Source: Sphaerospermopsis torques-reginae ITEP-024 (GTDB lineage Bacteria; Cyanobacteriota; Cyanobacteriia; Cyanobacteriales; Nostocaceae). Taken from it: a stretch of 64,000 nt of DNA. Position numbers and translations under genes: made by a program. The stretch lies in contig NZ_CP080598.1 of assembly GCF_019598945.1 (NCBI RefSeq), positions 4,960,001 to 5,024,000 of the forward strand, read 5' to 3'. This document shows, in pieces, positions 57,228 through 62,999 of this stretch; the first letter of the stretch is position 1; each line of letters starts with the position of its first letter. Under the pieces are notes generated by a model that did no database searches, had not been told where the DNA came from, and worked only from the letters and a program-made list of their open reading frames with translations.

Positions 57228-57884
57228 TTAAGTTAATATTTTACCGATTTTTTTGAGGATTTTGAGAACTTGATATAGTTCGTTTTCACGTCTATATAAA
57301 GTGAATCTATCAGACAAAGCATAACAAAGTTTATCAGTTTGAGTGAGTTTGAGAAATTGAAAGTCTTCACCATTAATTACTAATGAATATAGCGGATAAT
57401 TCGGGTGAGGATTAGCCAACATATAGGTAAGTGCTTGGGGTATGGCTTTAGCTAAGGAAAAATTAGTTCTTTTGGCTTCAATTACTAATAGCCATAACTT
57501 ATCTTGCAGAACTAAAACATCTATTTTACCTTTAATAATCTCTGTAATTTCTTCTTTGGTTTCTTCATCATCTGTAAAGATTGTTTCACTAATTTCTATA
57601 GGTTCTTCTGTGGCAATATAAAAAGGAGATTCATAGAAACCAGCTAAATCTAGTAAGGGAGATAATACCACTAATTTAACGGCATCTTCTAAAGGACTAG
57701 ATTTTTCTACCAAGTTCAGATAATTCTTTTTTACTCGGTCTAAATATTGCTGTTCTAATTCTGAGATGTTAGGTAAATCTGTTTGCCATTCTGTAAAAAA
57801 AAGTTCGTCTTTAGATTTGTGCAGGGCAAATTTTTGTTTTAATTCCGCAAGGGTAATATTCTGTGCTTGGATAATCTGAACCAT
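57228..57884 (-). CDS. Restriction-endonuclease-like protein of type I R N-terminal kind
   Basis: A 218-residue protein with KIDVLVLQDKLWLLVIEAKRT, where D, E and K (E-x-K in IEAKR) fit a PD-(D/E)XK nuclease core, followed by a Q-rich helix (IPQALTYMLANPHPNYPLYSLVING) as in HsdR N-terminal domains. Proteins like this are common in cyanobacteria without any restriction-modification partner. I choose the ATG at 57884 (MVQIIQAQNITLAELKQ); the reading to 57929 adds a less likely 15 residues. It ends 15 bp before the cysteine desulfurase start. Confidence 0.7.
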   Translation of the reverse strand: MVQIIQAQNITLAELKQKFALHKSKDELFFTEWQTDLPNISELEQQYLDRVKKNYLNLVEKSSPLEDAVKLVVLSPLLDLAGFYESPFYIATEEPIEISETIFTDDEETKEEITEIIKGKIDVLVLQDKLWLLVIEAKRTNFSLAKAIPQALTYMLANPHPNYPLYSLVINGEDFQFLKLTQTDKLCYALSDRFTLYRRENELYQVLKILKKIGKILT

Positions 57885-57976
57885 ATTTATCAAAAAATAA
57901 GATACAGGTCTATTCCTATTATAAAGCATGGATGATTATTTTCAGGAGGGAGCGATAAATCGCTCACTACAAACTG

Positions 57977-58453
57977 TTATTTGGTGGTTAATTCTTGTAA
58001 TTTTTTCAAGACTGCTTGTGCATGACCTTTTGTTTTGACGTTTGGCCAAGAATGGGCAATGATTTTATCAGGTGAAATCAAAAATGTAGACCGGGCAACA
58101 CCCATATATTCTTTACCCATAAATTTCTTTAAACGCCATCCACCATAAGCTTCAATTAATTGATGTTCGGGGTCACTTAATAGGGTAATTTCTAAGTTAT
58201 GTTTGGCGATAAATTTGCAATGGGATTTACTTGAATCTGGACTTACACCGATGATTTTAGCACCTAAAGCGGTAAATTCTGCGGCTAAATCTGTAAAATC
58301 TTTGGCTTCTGTGGTACATCCGGGGGTGTCATCTTTGGGGTAGAAATAAAGGACTATCCACTGATTTAATTCAGATAGTTTAACAAGGTTATCGTTTTGA
58401 TCTGGTGTGGAAAAATCTGGTGCAGGTTGTCCAATTTCGGGAATGTTGGTCAT
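57977..58453 (-). CDS. bcp: Thioredoxin-dependent peroxiredoxin (Bcp/PrxQ type)
   Basis: A 158-residue peroxiredoxin that reduces hydroperoxides. The active site DDTPGCTTEAKDF carries the peroxidatic Cys C46. The resolving Cys five residues on, found in many PrxQ proteins, is absent (T/A at that place); C79 in SKSHCKF is the only other cysteine and may play that role. Start and length are normal. Confidence 0.93.
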   Translation of the reverse strand: MTNIPEIGQPAPDFSTPDQNDNLVKLSELNQWIVLYFYPKDDTPGCTTEAKDFTDLAAEFTALGAKIIGVSPDSSKSHCKFIAKHNLEITLLSDPEHQLIEAYGGWRLKKFMGKEYMGVARSTFLISPDKIIAHSWPNVKTKGHAQAVLKKLQELTTK

Positions 58454-58561: not shown

Positions 58562-59401
58562 ATGTTACGTGATTTCACTAACCGAGATGAGTTAATAGCT
58601 TACCTGCGCGAACAATTTCCCCAGTCCGCAGAACGAGATGATCATATCAGCGAAACTGTTGGTGGAAGGAAAGCAGCAAAAGCAAAGCTAAAACAAGTAG
58701 ATCCTGTTGCATACGCAAAAACACGCAATTCTTTAAATGGTGCTGTTACTAGGTTATCACCTTATATTCGTCATGGCGTTTTAAGTTTGCGAGAAATTAG
58801 AGATGATATTTTAGATCGTGTGCAAAATCCAGAGGATGCGAGTAAATTAATTAATGAATTAGGATGGCGTGATTATTGGCAAAGGTTATATATTAAACTG
58901 GGAAAAGGTATTTGGGAAAATCAAGAAGAATACAAAACCGGTTATCAAGTAGCAGACTACGCTGCAAAATTACCATCAGATATTATTGAAGGTAAAACCG
59001 GACTGGTTTGTATTGATAGTTTTAGTCAAGAATTACGAGAAACTGGCTATTTACACAACCATATTAGAATGTGGTTAGCGGCTTATATTATCCATTGGCG
59101 ACGTATTCAATGGCAAGCCGGCGCAAAATGGTTTTTACAACATTTGTTAGATGGTGATCCTGCGAGTAATAATATGTCATGGCAATGGGTAGCGAGTACC
59201 TTTAGTCATAAACCTTATTTTTTCAATCGGGAAAATTTGGAACGTTACACAAAAGGGGTTTATTGTCGTCAATGTCCGCTTTATGGTAAGTGTGATTTTG
59301 AAGGTAGTTATGAGGAGTTGGAAGCGCGACTTTTTCCCAAGGGTGAGTTTAGTAAAAAACCCAATAGTCAAAGTTGGCAGAAGGGGAAAAAAGGAAGGTA
59401 A
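58562..59401 (+). CDS. Stand-alone FAD-binding domain of the photolyase/cryptochrome family
   Basis: A 279-residue protein that holds only the C-terminal FAD-binding half of class I photolyases. The landmarks are RLSPYIRHGVLSLREI (about 64-79), ELGWRDYWQRLY (99-110), LHNHIRMWLAAYII (164-177) and LLDGDPASNNMSWQWVAST (195-213), which match the FAD contacts of E. coli PhrB. The N-terminal alpha/beta antenna domain is missing and the reading starts at MLRDFTNRDELIAYL. Near the end a Cys cluster (C235, C238, C244) lies in YCRQCPLYGKC. A protein matching the missing N-terminal domain is encoded 1.6 kb downstream (61025). Confidence 0.85.
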   Translation: MLRDFTNRDELIAYLREQFPQSAERDDHISETVGGRKAAKAKLKQVDPVAYAKTRNSLNGAVTRLSPYIRHGVLSLREIRDDILDRVQNPEDASKLINELGWRDYWQRLYIKLGKGIWENQEEYKTGYQVADYAAKLPSDIIEGKTGLVCIDSFSQELRETGYLHNHIRMWLAAYIIHWRRIQWQAGAKWFLQHLLDGDPASNNMSWQWVASTFSHKPYFFNRENLERYTKGVYCRQCPLYGKCDFEGSYEELEARLFPKGEFSKKPNSQSWQKGKKGR

Positions 59402-59420
59402 AATTTTCTGAATTTTACAT

Positions 59421-59676
59421 TTGTCAGAATCAGGATAACCAGGATTAAAGGATTTACAGGATGTAATTTTTAGATGGTTTGTTGGTGATGAAAGTTGCAT
59501 TTGTTTGAATCAGGATAACCAGGATTAAAGGATTTACAGGATGTAATTTTTAGATGGTTTGTTGGTGATGAAAGTTGCATTTGTCTGAATCAGGATAACC
59601 AGGATTAAAGGATTTACAGGATGTAATTTTTAGATGGTTTGTTGGTGATGAAAGTTGCATTTGTCTGAATCAGACA
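59421..59676. repeat. Three 80-bp tandem repeats plus a partial fourth
   Basis: Exact 80-bp period: 59421-59500, 59501-59580 and 59581-59660, followed by a truncated unit to about 59676. Each starts ttgtctgaatcaggataacc and ends gatgaaagttgca; differences are single bases. The core CAGGATAACCAGGATTAAAGG is a dispersed repeat that recurs after the YgiT gene and, inverted, at 60731-60886 and 59826-59865. Confidence 0.95.
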
Positions 59677-59685
59677 AATTTAGGC

Positions 59686-59714
59686 TTGACAAGTCGAAAT
59701 AATTATTGTACACT
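59686..59714 (+). promoter_or_regulatory. Near-consensus sigma-70 promoter
   Basis: TTGACA (59686-59691), a 17-bp spacer and TACACT (59709-59714). It points toward the DUF4258 gene but is 217 bp away from it, leaving a long leader or a small RNA. Confidence 0.55.
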
Positions 59715-59930
59715 TATGTTATGAGTGGAAATCTGTGGGCGCAATATATATAGGGTTTTAAACTTCCAACATCGTTATTTTCACCCACGTCAAAAAATCC
59801 CCACCACCAATTTATCAAACCCATCATGAAAATCCTTAAATCCTGGATATCCTGATTCTGACAAAAATATTTACAGGATTGTGATAGTATCATTACCGAA
59901 CCAATCCTGAAAACCAACAAAAATCATGTT

Positions 59931-60212
59931 ATGTTCGACGAAATCTTACAAAAAATCAAGGAGAAAATTACATCACTTCAATATGTAATGACACTCCATG
60001 CAGAAGAAGAAATGAACGACGATAATTTAACCATATATGACATCGAACGAAGTATCCTCAATGGTGAAATTATAGAACGTCAAAAAGATAGAATTACCGC
60101 AGAATCAAAATACCGCATTAGAGGAGTAACCACCGACGGAGTAGAAATAGAAATTATCACCAAACTCAGTTTAAGTGGAAAATTAGTTATCATTACAGTA
60201 TACACTGTTTAA
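59931..60212 (+). CDS. DUF4258 protein, likely toxin of a toxin-antitoxin pair
   Basis: A 93-residue protein of the DUF4258 family: YVMTLHAEEEMNDDNLTIYDIERSILNGEII, then the RYRI-like strand (KYRIRGV) and EIEIITKLSLSGKLVIITVYTV. DUF4258 proteins resemble RelE/MqsR-type mRNA interferases and typically pair with a YgiT-type zinc-finger antitoxin, as here, 17 bp downstream. Toxicity is inferred. The alternative ATG is two codons upstream in another frame and is not used. Confidence 0.82.
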   Translation: MFDEILQKIKEKITSLQYVMTLHAEEEMNDDNLTIYDIERSILNGEIIERQKDRITAESKYRIRGVTTDGVEIEIITKLSLSGKLVIITVYTV

Positions 60213-60229
60213 AATTAGGTAACAGAAAT

Positions 60230-60481
60230 ATGAAATGCGATATTTGTAATAGTGAAGGTGTACATATCCGCAACGTTACCAGAACCTATGGAAAAGGGGA
60301 AGAACTGCTAGTAATTGAAAATGTACCTGTTATTAGCTGTCCTCATTGCGGTGAAAGTTACATGACAGCAGAAACATTACATAAAATTGAACAAATTAAA
60401 CTCAACCGTAAAAATCTTGCAGTTGCACGTTTTGTAGATGTTGTCAGTTTAAATACAGATAATTCACCTATTTTTGTCTGA
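60230..60481 (+). CDS. YgiT/MqsA-type zinc-finger antitoxin
   Basis: An 83-residue protein with CDICNSEGVHIRNVTRTYGKG and VISCPHCGESYMTAETL; the four cysteines (positions 3, 6, 37 and 40) form the zinc knuckle of MqsA-type antitoxins. No C-terminal helix-turn-helix domain is present, so it is the short YgiT form. Its last two codons and stop (TTT GTC TGA) coincide with the first bases of an 80-bp repeat, so the C-terminus may have been set by repeat insertion. Confidence 0.85.
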   Translation: MKCDICNSEGVHIRNVTRTYGKGEELLVIENVPVISCPHCGESYMTAETLHKIEQIKLNRKNLAVARFVDVVSLNTDNSPIFV

Positions 60482-60700
60482 ATCAGGATAACCAGGATTA
60501 TAGGATTTACAGGATGTAATTTTTAGATGGTTTGTTGATGAAAATTGTATTTGTCTGAACCAGGATAACCAGGATTAAAGGATTAACAGGATGGTAATTT
60601 TTAGATGGTTTGTTGGTGATGAAATTTGCATTTGTCTGAATCAGGATAACCAGGATTAAAGGATTAACAGGATGGTAATTTTGAGATAGTTTAAATAATT
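60474..60700. repeat. Three imperfect units of the 80-bp repeat after the YgiT gene
   Basis: Units at 60474-60550 (77 bp), 60551-60631 (81 bp) and 60632-60700 (partial), more diverged than the upstream array and in the same orientation. The DUF4258/YgiT pair thus lies between two arrays of one repeat. Confidence 0.9.
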
Positions 60701-60730
60701 CAGAAAACAATCATTCAACAACATCCTCAA

Positions 60731-60886
60731 AAATCCTATTCATCCCACCAAAAATCATTCAAAAACATCCTGTACATCCTCAAATCCTGGACATCCTGAT
60801 TCAGACAAAAAAATCCTATTCATCCCACCAAAAATCATTCAAAAACATCCTGTACATCCTCAAATCCTGGACATCCTGATTCTGAC
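60731..60886. repeat. Two inverted-orientation units of the related repeat
   Basis: Two near-identical units, 60731-60810 and 60811-60886, period 80 bp. Each contains CATCCTGTACATCCTCAAAT and CCTGGACATCCTGATTC, the reverse complement of the core in the direct arrays, but with another flank (tattcatcccaccaaaaatc). Confidence 0.9.
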
Positions 60887-60887
60887 T

Positions 60888-61022
60888 GTACCCATTCGTC
60901 AACGGGATAATAGCATTCCTGAAAAATTAGCGGAGGTGATAGATTTAGCTTTAACCGAAAAACCGCAAATTTATTTTCAAAGTGCGCTAGAATTTAAGGA
61001 AGCTTTGTTAAAATCTATCTGA
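60888..61022 (+). pseudogene. C-terminal remnant of a serine/threonine protein kinase
   Basis: About 44 codons reading VPIRQRDNSIPEKLAEVIDL, LALTEKPQIYFQSALEFKEALL and a TGA at 61020-61022. This matches the C-terminal end of the cyanobacterial Hanks-type kinase catalytic domain as I recall it. The rest of the kinase is missing; the repeat unit ends right before it. It probably was truncated when the repeats arrived. The next gene starts 2 bp after its stop. Confidence 0.65.
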
Positions 61023-61024
61023 AT

Positions 61025-61438
61025 ATGAATAAACCAATTATTTGGATAAATGGAGATTGTTTAAGTCCTCAAAACCCAACTTTACAAGAATATCCTAACA
61101 CCCCAGCAATTTGGGTTTGGGATGATGCTTTAATAGAAGAGTGGCAATTAAGTTTAAAAAGGATAACTTTTATATATGAGTGTTTGCTAGAATTACCTGT
61201 AGAAATTCGTCGGGGAAATGTAGCCGAGGAAATTATTAAATTTGCTCAAGAAAATGATGCTAAATTGGTGGTAACTACGGATAGTCCCAGTCCCAGATTT
61301 GATGATATTTGTGATCAGATTGAAAAGAAATTGAAATTAGAAATATTTGAAGTTGAACCGTTTTTTGATTATGATGGTTTTATTGATTTAAAACGGTTTT
61401 CCCGTTATTGGAAAGTAGCTGAAAAATATGTTTTTTGA
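61025..61438 (+). CDS. Stand-alone photolyase/cryptochrome-type N-terminal domain
   Basis: A 137-residue protein with the Rossmann-like pattern of the photolyase antenna domain: PIIWINGDCLSPQNPTL (compare the family's WFRxDLRLxDNxAL), AIWVWDDALIEEW, FIYECLLELPVEIRRGNVAEEI (compare the RRGD/xxxL segment) and KLVVTTDSPSPRFDDI. The end FIDLKRFSRYW fits the linker into the FAD domain. No FAD domain follows in this reading frame, so it is a free-standing half. The FAD domain is encoded at 58562-59401. The fit is by pattern, not by a search. Confidence 0.6.
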   Translation: MNKPIIWINGDCLSPQNPTLQEYPNTPAIWVWDDALIEEWQLSLKRITFIYECLLELPVEIRRGNVAEEIIKFAQENDAKLVVTTDSPSPRFDDICDQIEKKLKLEIFEVEPFFDYDGFIDLKRFSRYWKVAEKYVF

Positions 61439-61604: not shown

Positions 61605-62999
61605 ATGCCTAAACTCCTTGCTGACATCCAAAATTTACTCTCTGATTTAATCACTCGCTATTCCTCCCGTGTCGATTATCTCATGATTCGCTTAGAAGAA
61701 GCTGAAGGAACAGATATTTTATTGCGTGGTGAAAAGGTAGAAACCCTCAGCGAAGGTATTTCTATCGGTGGCCATGTTCGCGCTTGTCATAAAGGTGGCT
61801 GGGGTTTCAGTAGTTTCAACCAGTTAGCTACTATCGAAGAACGAATAGAAGAAGCGATCGCTGCTGCTAGGATAGTGGGAGATGAAGAAACCATCCTCGC
61901 ACCCATTGATCCCATCCAAGCATTATGTAATTTACCCCTCACAGGTATTGATCCCCGTACAGTTTCCCTGAAACAAAAAAAAGAACTGTGCGATCGCTAC
62001 ACCGAATTATTAAAAAGCATTGATTCTCGCATCACCACTACCTCAGTCCACTATGGTGACAGTTCCCAAAGAGTAATTATTGCTACTTCAGAAGGAACAT
62101 TAATAGAGCAATCTTGGGTAGATATGGAAATGCGTTTTGCAGCGACAGCAAGAAATGGTGACACTGTACAAACAGGGAGAGAAACTACAGGATCACGCAA
62201 AGCTTTTGAAGATTTAGTCAATTTAGATACTCAAGTTAAAAGCGCAGCCGAAAGAGCAGTAACAGCTTTATCCTTACCATCAGTTAAAGGTAACACTTAT
62301 ACCGTCGTCATTGACCCCATACTTACAGGTTTATTTGTTCATGAAGCTTTTGGACATCTTTCCGAAGCAGATATGGCCTATGAAAACCCTGATTTATTAG
62401 AGGTTATGACCCTGGGAAGGCGTTTTGGTTCAGAAGAACTACAAATTTTTGATGGTGCTGCACCCCAAGGTCATAGAGGTAGTTATTTTTACGATGATGA
62501 AGGCACACCTGCCACAACTACGCAATTAATCAAAGATGGTGTGTTAGTGGGACGTTTGCATTCTCGTGAAACTGCGGGTAAATTAGGCGAAGCACCCACA
62601 GGTAACGCCCGTTGTCTCGATTATCACTACTCCCCCATTGTACGGATGACAAATACCTGGATAGAAAGAGGCAAAACCCCAGTAGCAGATTTATTCACAG
62701 ATATCAAAGAAGGAGTATATGCACGTAACTGGTTAGGGGGGATGACAAACGGGGAAATGTTCACCTTTAGCGCAGGTGAAGCGTGGATGATTAGAAATGG
62801 CGAAATAGCTGAACCTGTAAAAGATGTTACCCTTTCCGGTAATGTTTTTCAAACCCTTGCAGATATCGAAGCCATAGGTGATGATTTTTACTGGGATGAG
62901 TCCGGTGGATGTGGTAAAGGTGGACAAAACGGTTTACCTGTAGGTTGCGGTGGTCCTTCTTTGCGTATTCGAGATGTGGTTGTGGGGGGAGAAAGCTAA
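61605..62999 (+). CDS. tldD: TldD-type metalloprotease subunit
   Basis: TldD with TldE (PmbA) forms a metalloprotease that degrades unfolded peptides and, in some bacteria, processes modified peptides. The 464-residue protein has the metal motif HEAFGH (H246, E247, H251) in LFVHEAFGHLSEADM, and the TldD-type end RNWLGGMTNGEMFTFSAGEAWMIRNGEI. A PmbA gene is not seen in the window. Start ATG at 61605 is normal for the family. Confidence 0.93.
   Translation: MPKLLADIQNLLSDLITRYSSRVDYLMIRLEEAEGTDILLRGEKVETLSEGISIGGHVRACHKGGWGFSSFNQLATIEERIEEAIAAARIVGDEETILAPIDPIQALCNLPLTGIDPRTVSLKQKKELCDRYTELLKSIDSRITTTSVHYGDSSQRVIIATSEGTLIEQSWVDMEMRFAATARNGDTVQTGRETTGSRKAFEDLVNLDTQVKSAAERAVTALSLPSVKGNTYTVVIDPILTGLFVHEAFGHLSEADMAYENPDLLEVMTLGRRFGSEELQIFDGAAPQGHRGSYFYDDEGTPATTTQLIKDGVLVGRLHSRETAGKLGEAPTGNARCLDYHYSPIVRMTNTWIERGKTPVADLFTDIKEGVYARNWLGGMTNGEMFTFSAGEAWMIRNGEIAEPVKDVTLSGNVFQTLADIEAIGDDFYWDESGGCGKGGQNGLPVGCGGPSLRIRDVVVGGES

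Follow-up and report, generated by a model that had tools for sequence, protein, structure and literature searches.

Two closely spaced genes of the cyanobacterium Sphaerospermopsis torques-reginae ITEP-024 each encode what appears to be one half of a photolyase, which raises the question of whether their products work as one enzyme and, if so, as which one. Both lie in a 64,000-nucleotide stretch of DNA (positions 4,960,001 to 5,024,000 of NZ_CP080598.1), referred to here as the window. The original prediction held that a class I photolyase had been split into two genes that may still function as a pair. As it had described, both open reading frames are intact and lie on the positive strand. 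The features of the locus, by position in the window, are as follows.

57977 to 58453, negative strand: peroxiredoxin (AhpC/TSA), a conserved neighbor of phr4, outside the enzyme
58562 to 59401, positive strand: phr4, the proposed FAD/catalytic subunit (279 amino acids), from its PF03441 match and conserved residues
59409 to 59673, positive strand: three tandem copies of a dispersed repeat of about 80 bp, directly 3' of phr4
59931 to 60212, positive strand: DUF4258 protein, the toxin-like partner of a toxin-antitoxin-type pair, between phr4 and phr5
60230 to 60481, positive strand: YgiT-type zinc-finger protein (MqsA-like N-terminal part), the antitoxin-like partner
60462 to 60886, no strand assigned: more repeat copies, direct and inverted
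60888 to 61019, positive strand: open stretch of 44 amino acids, initially called a kinase remnant
61025 to 61438, positive strand: phr5, the proposed antenna-type alpha/beta subunit (137 amino acids), with a five-strand Rossmann-like model, from its predicted fold
61605 to 62999, positive strand: TldD/PmbA-type protein, a conserved neighbor of phr5, outside the enzyme

A gene for a stand-alone HSDR_N protein of 233 amino acids, similar to the N terminus of a type I restriction R subunit, is found at 57228 to 57929 on the negative strand. No Rfam families were found in the window.

The product of the gene at 58562 to 59401 proved to be a photolyase FAD domain alone, as foretold. It matched PF03441 with 87 bits against a cutoff of 27, the Pfam profile search gave no match to an antenna-domain model, and its PDB matches were photolyases and cryptochromes. 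The predicted structure was of moderate quality (pLDDT 69.6, pTM 0.57), and its best PDB matches were photolyases with low TM-scores. The second protein had been expected to fall into PF00875. Its score against that family was 19 bits (E 0.0015), below the curated cutoff of 26.6 bits, so that sequence alone leaves the domain identity unsettled; a weak Usp match was also returned by the Pfam search. Structure prediction of this protein alone, however, gave a photolyase antenna fold: the AlphaFold model (pLDDT 79, pTM 0.76) was a five-stranded alpha/beta fold, and all of the top 50 PDB matches listed were photolyase or cryptochrome chains. Furthermore, 12 of 15 diverse homologues matched PF00875, the best with an E value of 2.5e-5. 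The expected antenna-only fold was thus borne out by the model, the PDB matches, and the homologues, whereas the curated cutoff was missed, and the modeled fold supports homology of the protein to the PF00875 antenna domain despite the low score. No relatives of the protein were found in viral contigs.

Genes of this kind have been described in marine Synechococcus and Cyanobium as phr4 and phr5, along with a fused gene of reversed domain order (phr6), the cysteines discussed below, and UV phenotypes (mBio 2022, PMC9426592). The same gene set is reported there for Nostoc punctiforme. In marine Synechococcus and N. punctiforme, as in the window, a FAD-only gene precedes an antenna-only gene and the four Fe-S cysteines have identical spacing, but in marine Synechococcus the two genes are only seven base pairs apart, as opposed to 1.6 kb of island DNA here. 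The pair, its Fe-S cysteines, and the heterodimer idea are therefore already known from that study, which left undecided whether the genes yield a frameshifted single protein or a heterodimer. What is new is evidence that the pair acts as separate polypeptides, from strains in which the genes lie far apart.

Four cysteines of Phr4, C150, C235, C238, and C244, were invariant in 30 orthologues, and 153 rows of a wider set had all four. Their spacing, C-x84-C-x2-C-x5-C, equals that of C169, C254, C257, and C263 in Phr4 of strain RS9916, published as Fe-S ligands (PMC9426592). The original prediction had pointed to C235, C238, and C244 as an unusual cluster, perhaps structural or metal binding; the cluster is real, but its fourth member, C150, had been missed, and with the published spacing at hand the four residues are best read as the proposed ligands of a [4Fe-4S] cluster. 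Genome G043 carries a divergent phr4/phr5 pair (L179, 1666 to 2919) in which these cysteines are gone and the antenna gene still adjoins. The loss from this pair suggests that the four cysteines act together.

At the positions equivalent to E283, W286, N349, M353, and W392 of class I enzymes, which are the established CPD contacts, the alignment placed identical residues in Phr4 (E99, W102, N166, M170, and W209). Aligned PhrB-type (6-4) proteins have Q and a His-His motif where Phr4 keeps this set. The tryptophan chain of Phr4 comprises W118, W184, and W207.

Natural fusions of the two domains were found outside the window genome. Three Deinococcus plasmid proteins (L164, L184, and L185) and one cyanobacterial protein (in G307) unite the FAD and antenna domains, in that order, in a single chain; on a fourth Deinococcus plasmid the domains are encoded by two genes that overlap by 4 nt. 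Identity of the window proteins to the Deinococcus fusions was 54% for Phr4 and 42 to 44% for Phr5. These plasmid proteins and Phr6 of Cyanobium thus have the same two domains as the window pair in the same order, but in one polypeptide rather than two. A Persicobacter plasmid (L165, 4848 to 7515) encodes a FAD protein of the short-photolyase type that is extended at its C terminus; the gene for it overlaps a second, larger co-directional gene of the cryptochrome/photolyase type.

Two other families share features with the pair. NewPHL/Phr7, which has a C-terminal Z-domain, resembles it in inverted topology and a closely related FAD domain, but consists of one chain and lacks the Fe-S cysteines, as cited in PMC9426592, as opposed to the separate antenna gene and four cysteines in the window. 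A link between Phr5 and the Z-domain was considered and rejected, as similarity of Phr5 to the C-terminal regions of NewPHL/Phr7 taken as Z-domains was unconvincing (hhalign probability 12). The prokaryotic (6-4) photolyase family PhrB/FeS-BCP (PF04244) has four Fe-S cysteines in its FAD domain, as published, but it is a single chain of conventional domain order with a His-His lesion motif, whereas Phr4 has N166 and M170. No member of PF04244 was found in the window genome.

The DNA between the two genes had been interpreted as repeats, a toxin-antitoxin pair, and a kinase remnant, all inserted later. The 1.6-kb spacer indeed holds imperfect repeats of about 80 bp and the DUF4258/YgiT-type zinc-finger gene pair, for which PADLOC gave no match at 59931 to 60481. 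The repeat, TCAGGATNNCCAGGATTNNAGGATTNACAGGATG, occurs in 331 copies in the window genome, 191 in G001, and 42 in G034, about equally on both strands; a reversed control pattern gave 0 copies in the same search. In the near relative G034 the island is absent and phr4 and phr5 are 136 bp apart. The repeated, mobile-looking DNA in the spacer and the lack of an island in G034 support late insertion. The kinase remnant, in contrast, is unproven: the stretch at 60888 to 61019 had no match to a protein kinase or any other Pfam family, and parts of it are also present upstream of phr5 in relatives (L002 and L149). The usual gene order is peroxiredoxin-phr4-phr5-tldD, and in G014 it is parted into peroxiredoxin-phr4 and phr5-tldD.

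We evaluated how consistently the two genes occur together in a spread of 291 Cyanobacteriota genomes, plus 60 relatives. Both were present in 57 of the 291 genomes and neither was detected at a strong score in 233; Phr5 alone was found at a strong score in none. The one remaining genome (G081) encodes a distant relative of Phr4 but no Phr5; this protein, from an open reading frame of 451 amino acids, lacks the cysteine cluster. The C-terminal region of this protein (L199, 819 to 2171) is unlike Phr5, yet it ends in a similar FSQFW motif. Fisher's test gave a p value of about 3e-60 for the co-occurrence, a figure that ignores the shared ancestry of these genomes. Among the 60 relatives, nearly every genome with one gene has the other; in one draft assembly (G032) Phr5 was detected and Phr4 was not.

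Linkage was counted in 83 genomes with both genes. In 49 of these, phr4 and phr5 lie within 600 bp on the same strand, FAD gene first, as the original prediction had expected for relatives that lack the island. Several of the tight junctions are 4-nt ATGA overlaps, an arrangement typical of translational coupling. The genes are 0.8 to 6 kb apart in 8 genomes, including that of the window, and on different contigs in 12; in the other 14, they share a contig at a distance of 36 kb to 4.9 Mb. On the phr5 tree, the far-apart state requires about 10 changes, at least 6 of them by well supported branches.

For both genes, dN/dS was 0.04 to 0.11 when the window genome was compared with its two nearest relatives, and 0.03 to 0.12 among five genomes in which the genes are separated. 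Thus, phr4 and phr5 remain under purifying selection in the window genome despite the island. The genes also decay jointly: in G015 (L180), the reading frame of phr5 is split in two, and phr4 survives only as a C-terminal remnant. A second, partial pair was seen in G321 (L200), where the C-terminal 109 residues of phr4 are followed directly by a tail-less phr5, with an intact pair elsewhere in the genome. Near-perfect co-occurrence, adjacency in relatives without the insert, and natural fusions support the proposed functional pairing of the two genes. Overall, the locus is very probably phr4/phr5, encoding a single photolyase whose two subunits are translated separately.

The pair could be explained otherwise. 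Both domains, a common strand, and insert DNA between them would fit a class I photolyase cut into N- and C-terminal halves by insertions. Class I enzymes, however, are one chain with an N-terminal PF00875 domain and a C-terminal FAD domain, whereas the window has two genes with the FAD domain first, as in every natural fusion seen. This order runs opposite to that of class I, so a broken class I enzyme does not account for the pair; moreover, the two-gene layout without insert occurs across the Cyanobacteriota as well as in Deinococcus QL22, and a full-length PF03441 photolyase is encoded separately, at another place in the window genome. The halves interpretation is thus scarcely credible. 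Programmed ribosomal frameshifting, hypothesized in the mBio 2022 study to fuse the phr4 and phr5 products, agrees with the short, conserved gene spacing in marine Synechococcus and with the natural fusions. It could operate where the genes touch, but 1.6 kb of DNA with two further open reading frames separates the window genes, and a joint product is impossible in the 14 genomes with distances of 36 kb to 4.9 Mb. As both genes are kept there, a two-subunit enzyme is favored and frameshifting is very improbable as the general explanation. It is also improbable that Phr4, as a short photolyase (SPL), is sufficient by itself and has in Phr5 no more than an unrelated Usp/HUP-like neighbor. The weak Usp match would agree with this, as would SPLs being reported in PMC9649867 as CPD repair enzymes without an N-terminal alpha/beta domain; against it stand the co-occurrence in 57 of 57 genomes even when the genes are unlinked, the fusions, the joint decay in G015, and the photolyase antenna fold.

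The lesion repaired by a two-subunit Phr4/Phr5 enzyme is less certain. A (6-4) photolyase was predicted from the Fe-S cysteines (mBio 2022, PMC9426592). In that study, loss of phr4/phr5 lowered UV-C survival and the genes shielded Escherichia coli from UV-C, the UV protection being known only for RS9916, and the (6-4) view is consistent with its results for UV-B and UV-C. The four PhrB-like cysteines, a UV-C phenotype stronger than that with UV-B, and the lack of a PF04244 (PhrB-type) photolyase in the window genome all favor it. Conversely, Phr4 retains the CPD residue set where PhrB-type proteins have Q and His-His, and PMC9649867 describes SPL proteins as enzymes of CPD repair. The residue set argues for CPD repair and against the (6-4) prediction, which we regard as unlikely. 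A blue-light sensor of the cryptochrome kind would be compatible with the sequence, but all CPD-binding residues are retained and the RS9916 deletion and E. coli expression phenotypes concern UV survival (PMC9426592), making a sensory role most doubtful.

For the preferred two-subunit photolyase, we envision that Phr4 binds FAD and DNA, carries the [4Fe-4S] cluster, and performs the chemistry. FAD would be photoreduced through the W118-W184-W207 chain, and an electron would then pass from the excited reduced FAD to a UV lesion, which is most likely a cyclobutane pyrimidine dimer. We infer that the two proteins form a complex with a bound chromophore, in which Phr5 is most likely bound to Phr4 and serves as a subunit for light harvesting or stabilization. 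For the strains with far-apart yet retained genes, the choice between frameshifting and a heterodimer is settled in favor of a pair of polypeptides that act in trans. The pair lends itself to testing, in a natural system, whether energy transfer to FAD requires covalent linkage of the antenna domain.

These results also bear on SPLs, which are described as lacking an antenna domain (cited in PMC9649867 and PMC9178010) and have been proposed in the literature as antenna-less ancestors of the whole photolyase/cryptochrome family. Like Phr4, SPLs consist of the FAD half only and are similar to classes I and III, and the proposed ancestor has an Fe-S cluster. The FAD polypeptide of the window has no antenna domain either, but a separate partner gene encodes one, and each of the 57 sampled Cyanobacteriota that have the FAD gene also has such a partner. 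An SPL gene of Synechococcus elongatus is listed in PMC9178010. In G087, a genome whose class I photolyase gave a full-length match of 1049 bits to the S. elongatus structure 1owl, a phr5 reading frame begins a few bases 3' of the FAD-only ("short photolyase") gene, so an antenna gene does accompany this SPL at least. Fe-S SPLs in general may, tentatively and with somewhat less than even likelihood, supply the catalytic subunit of photolyases that require a second, antenna subunit, the separate gene for which has been overlooked. If so, the shortness of SPLs would be no primitive trait; the partner gene weakens the argument that antenna-less short photolyases root the family tree.
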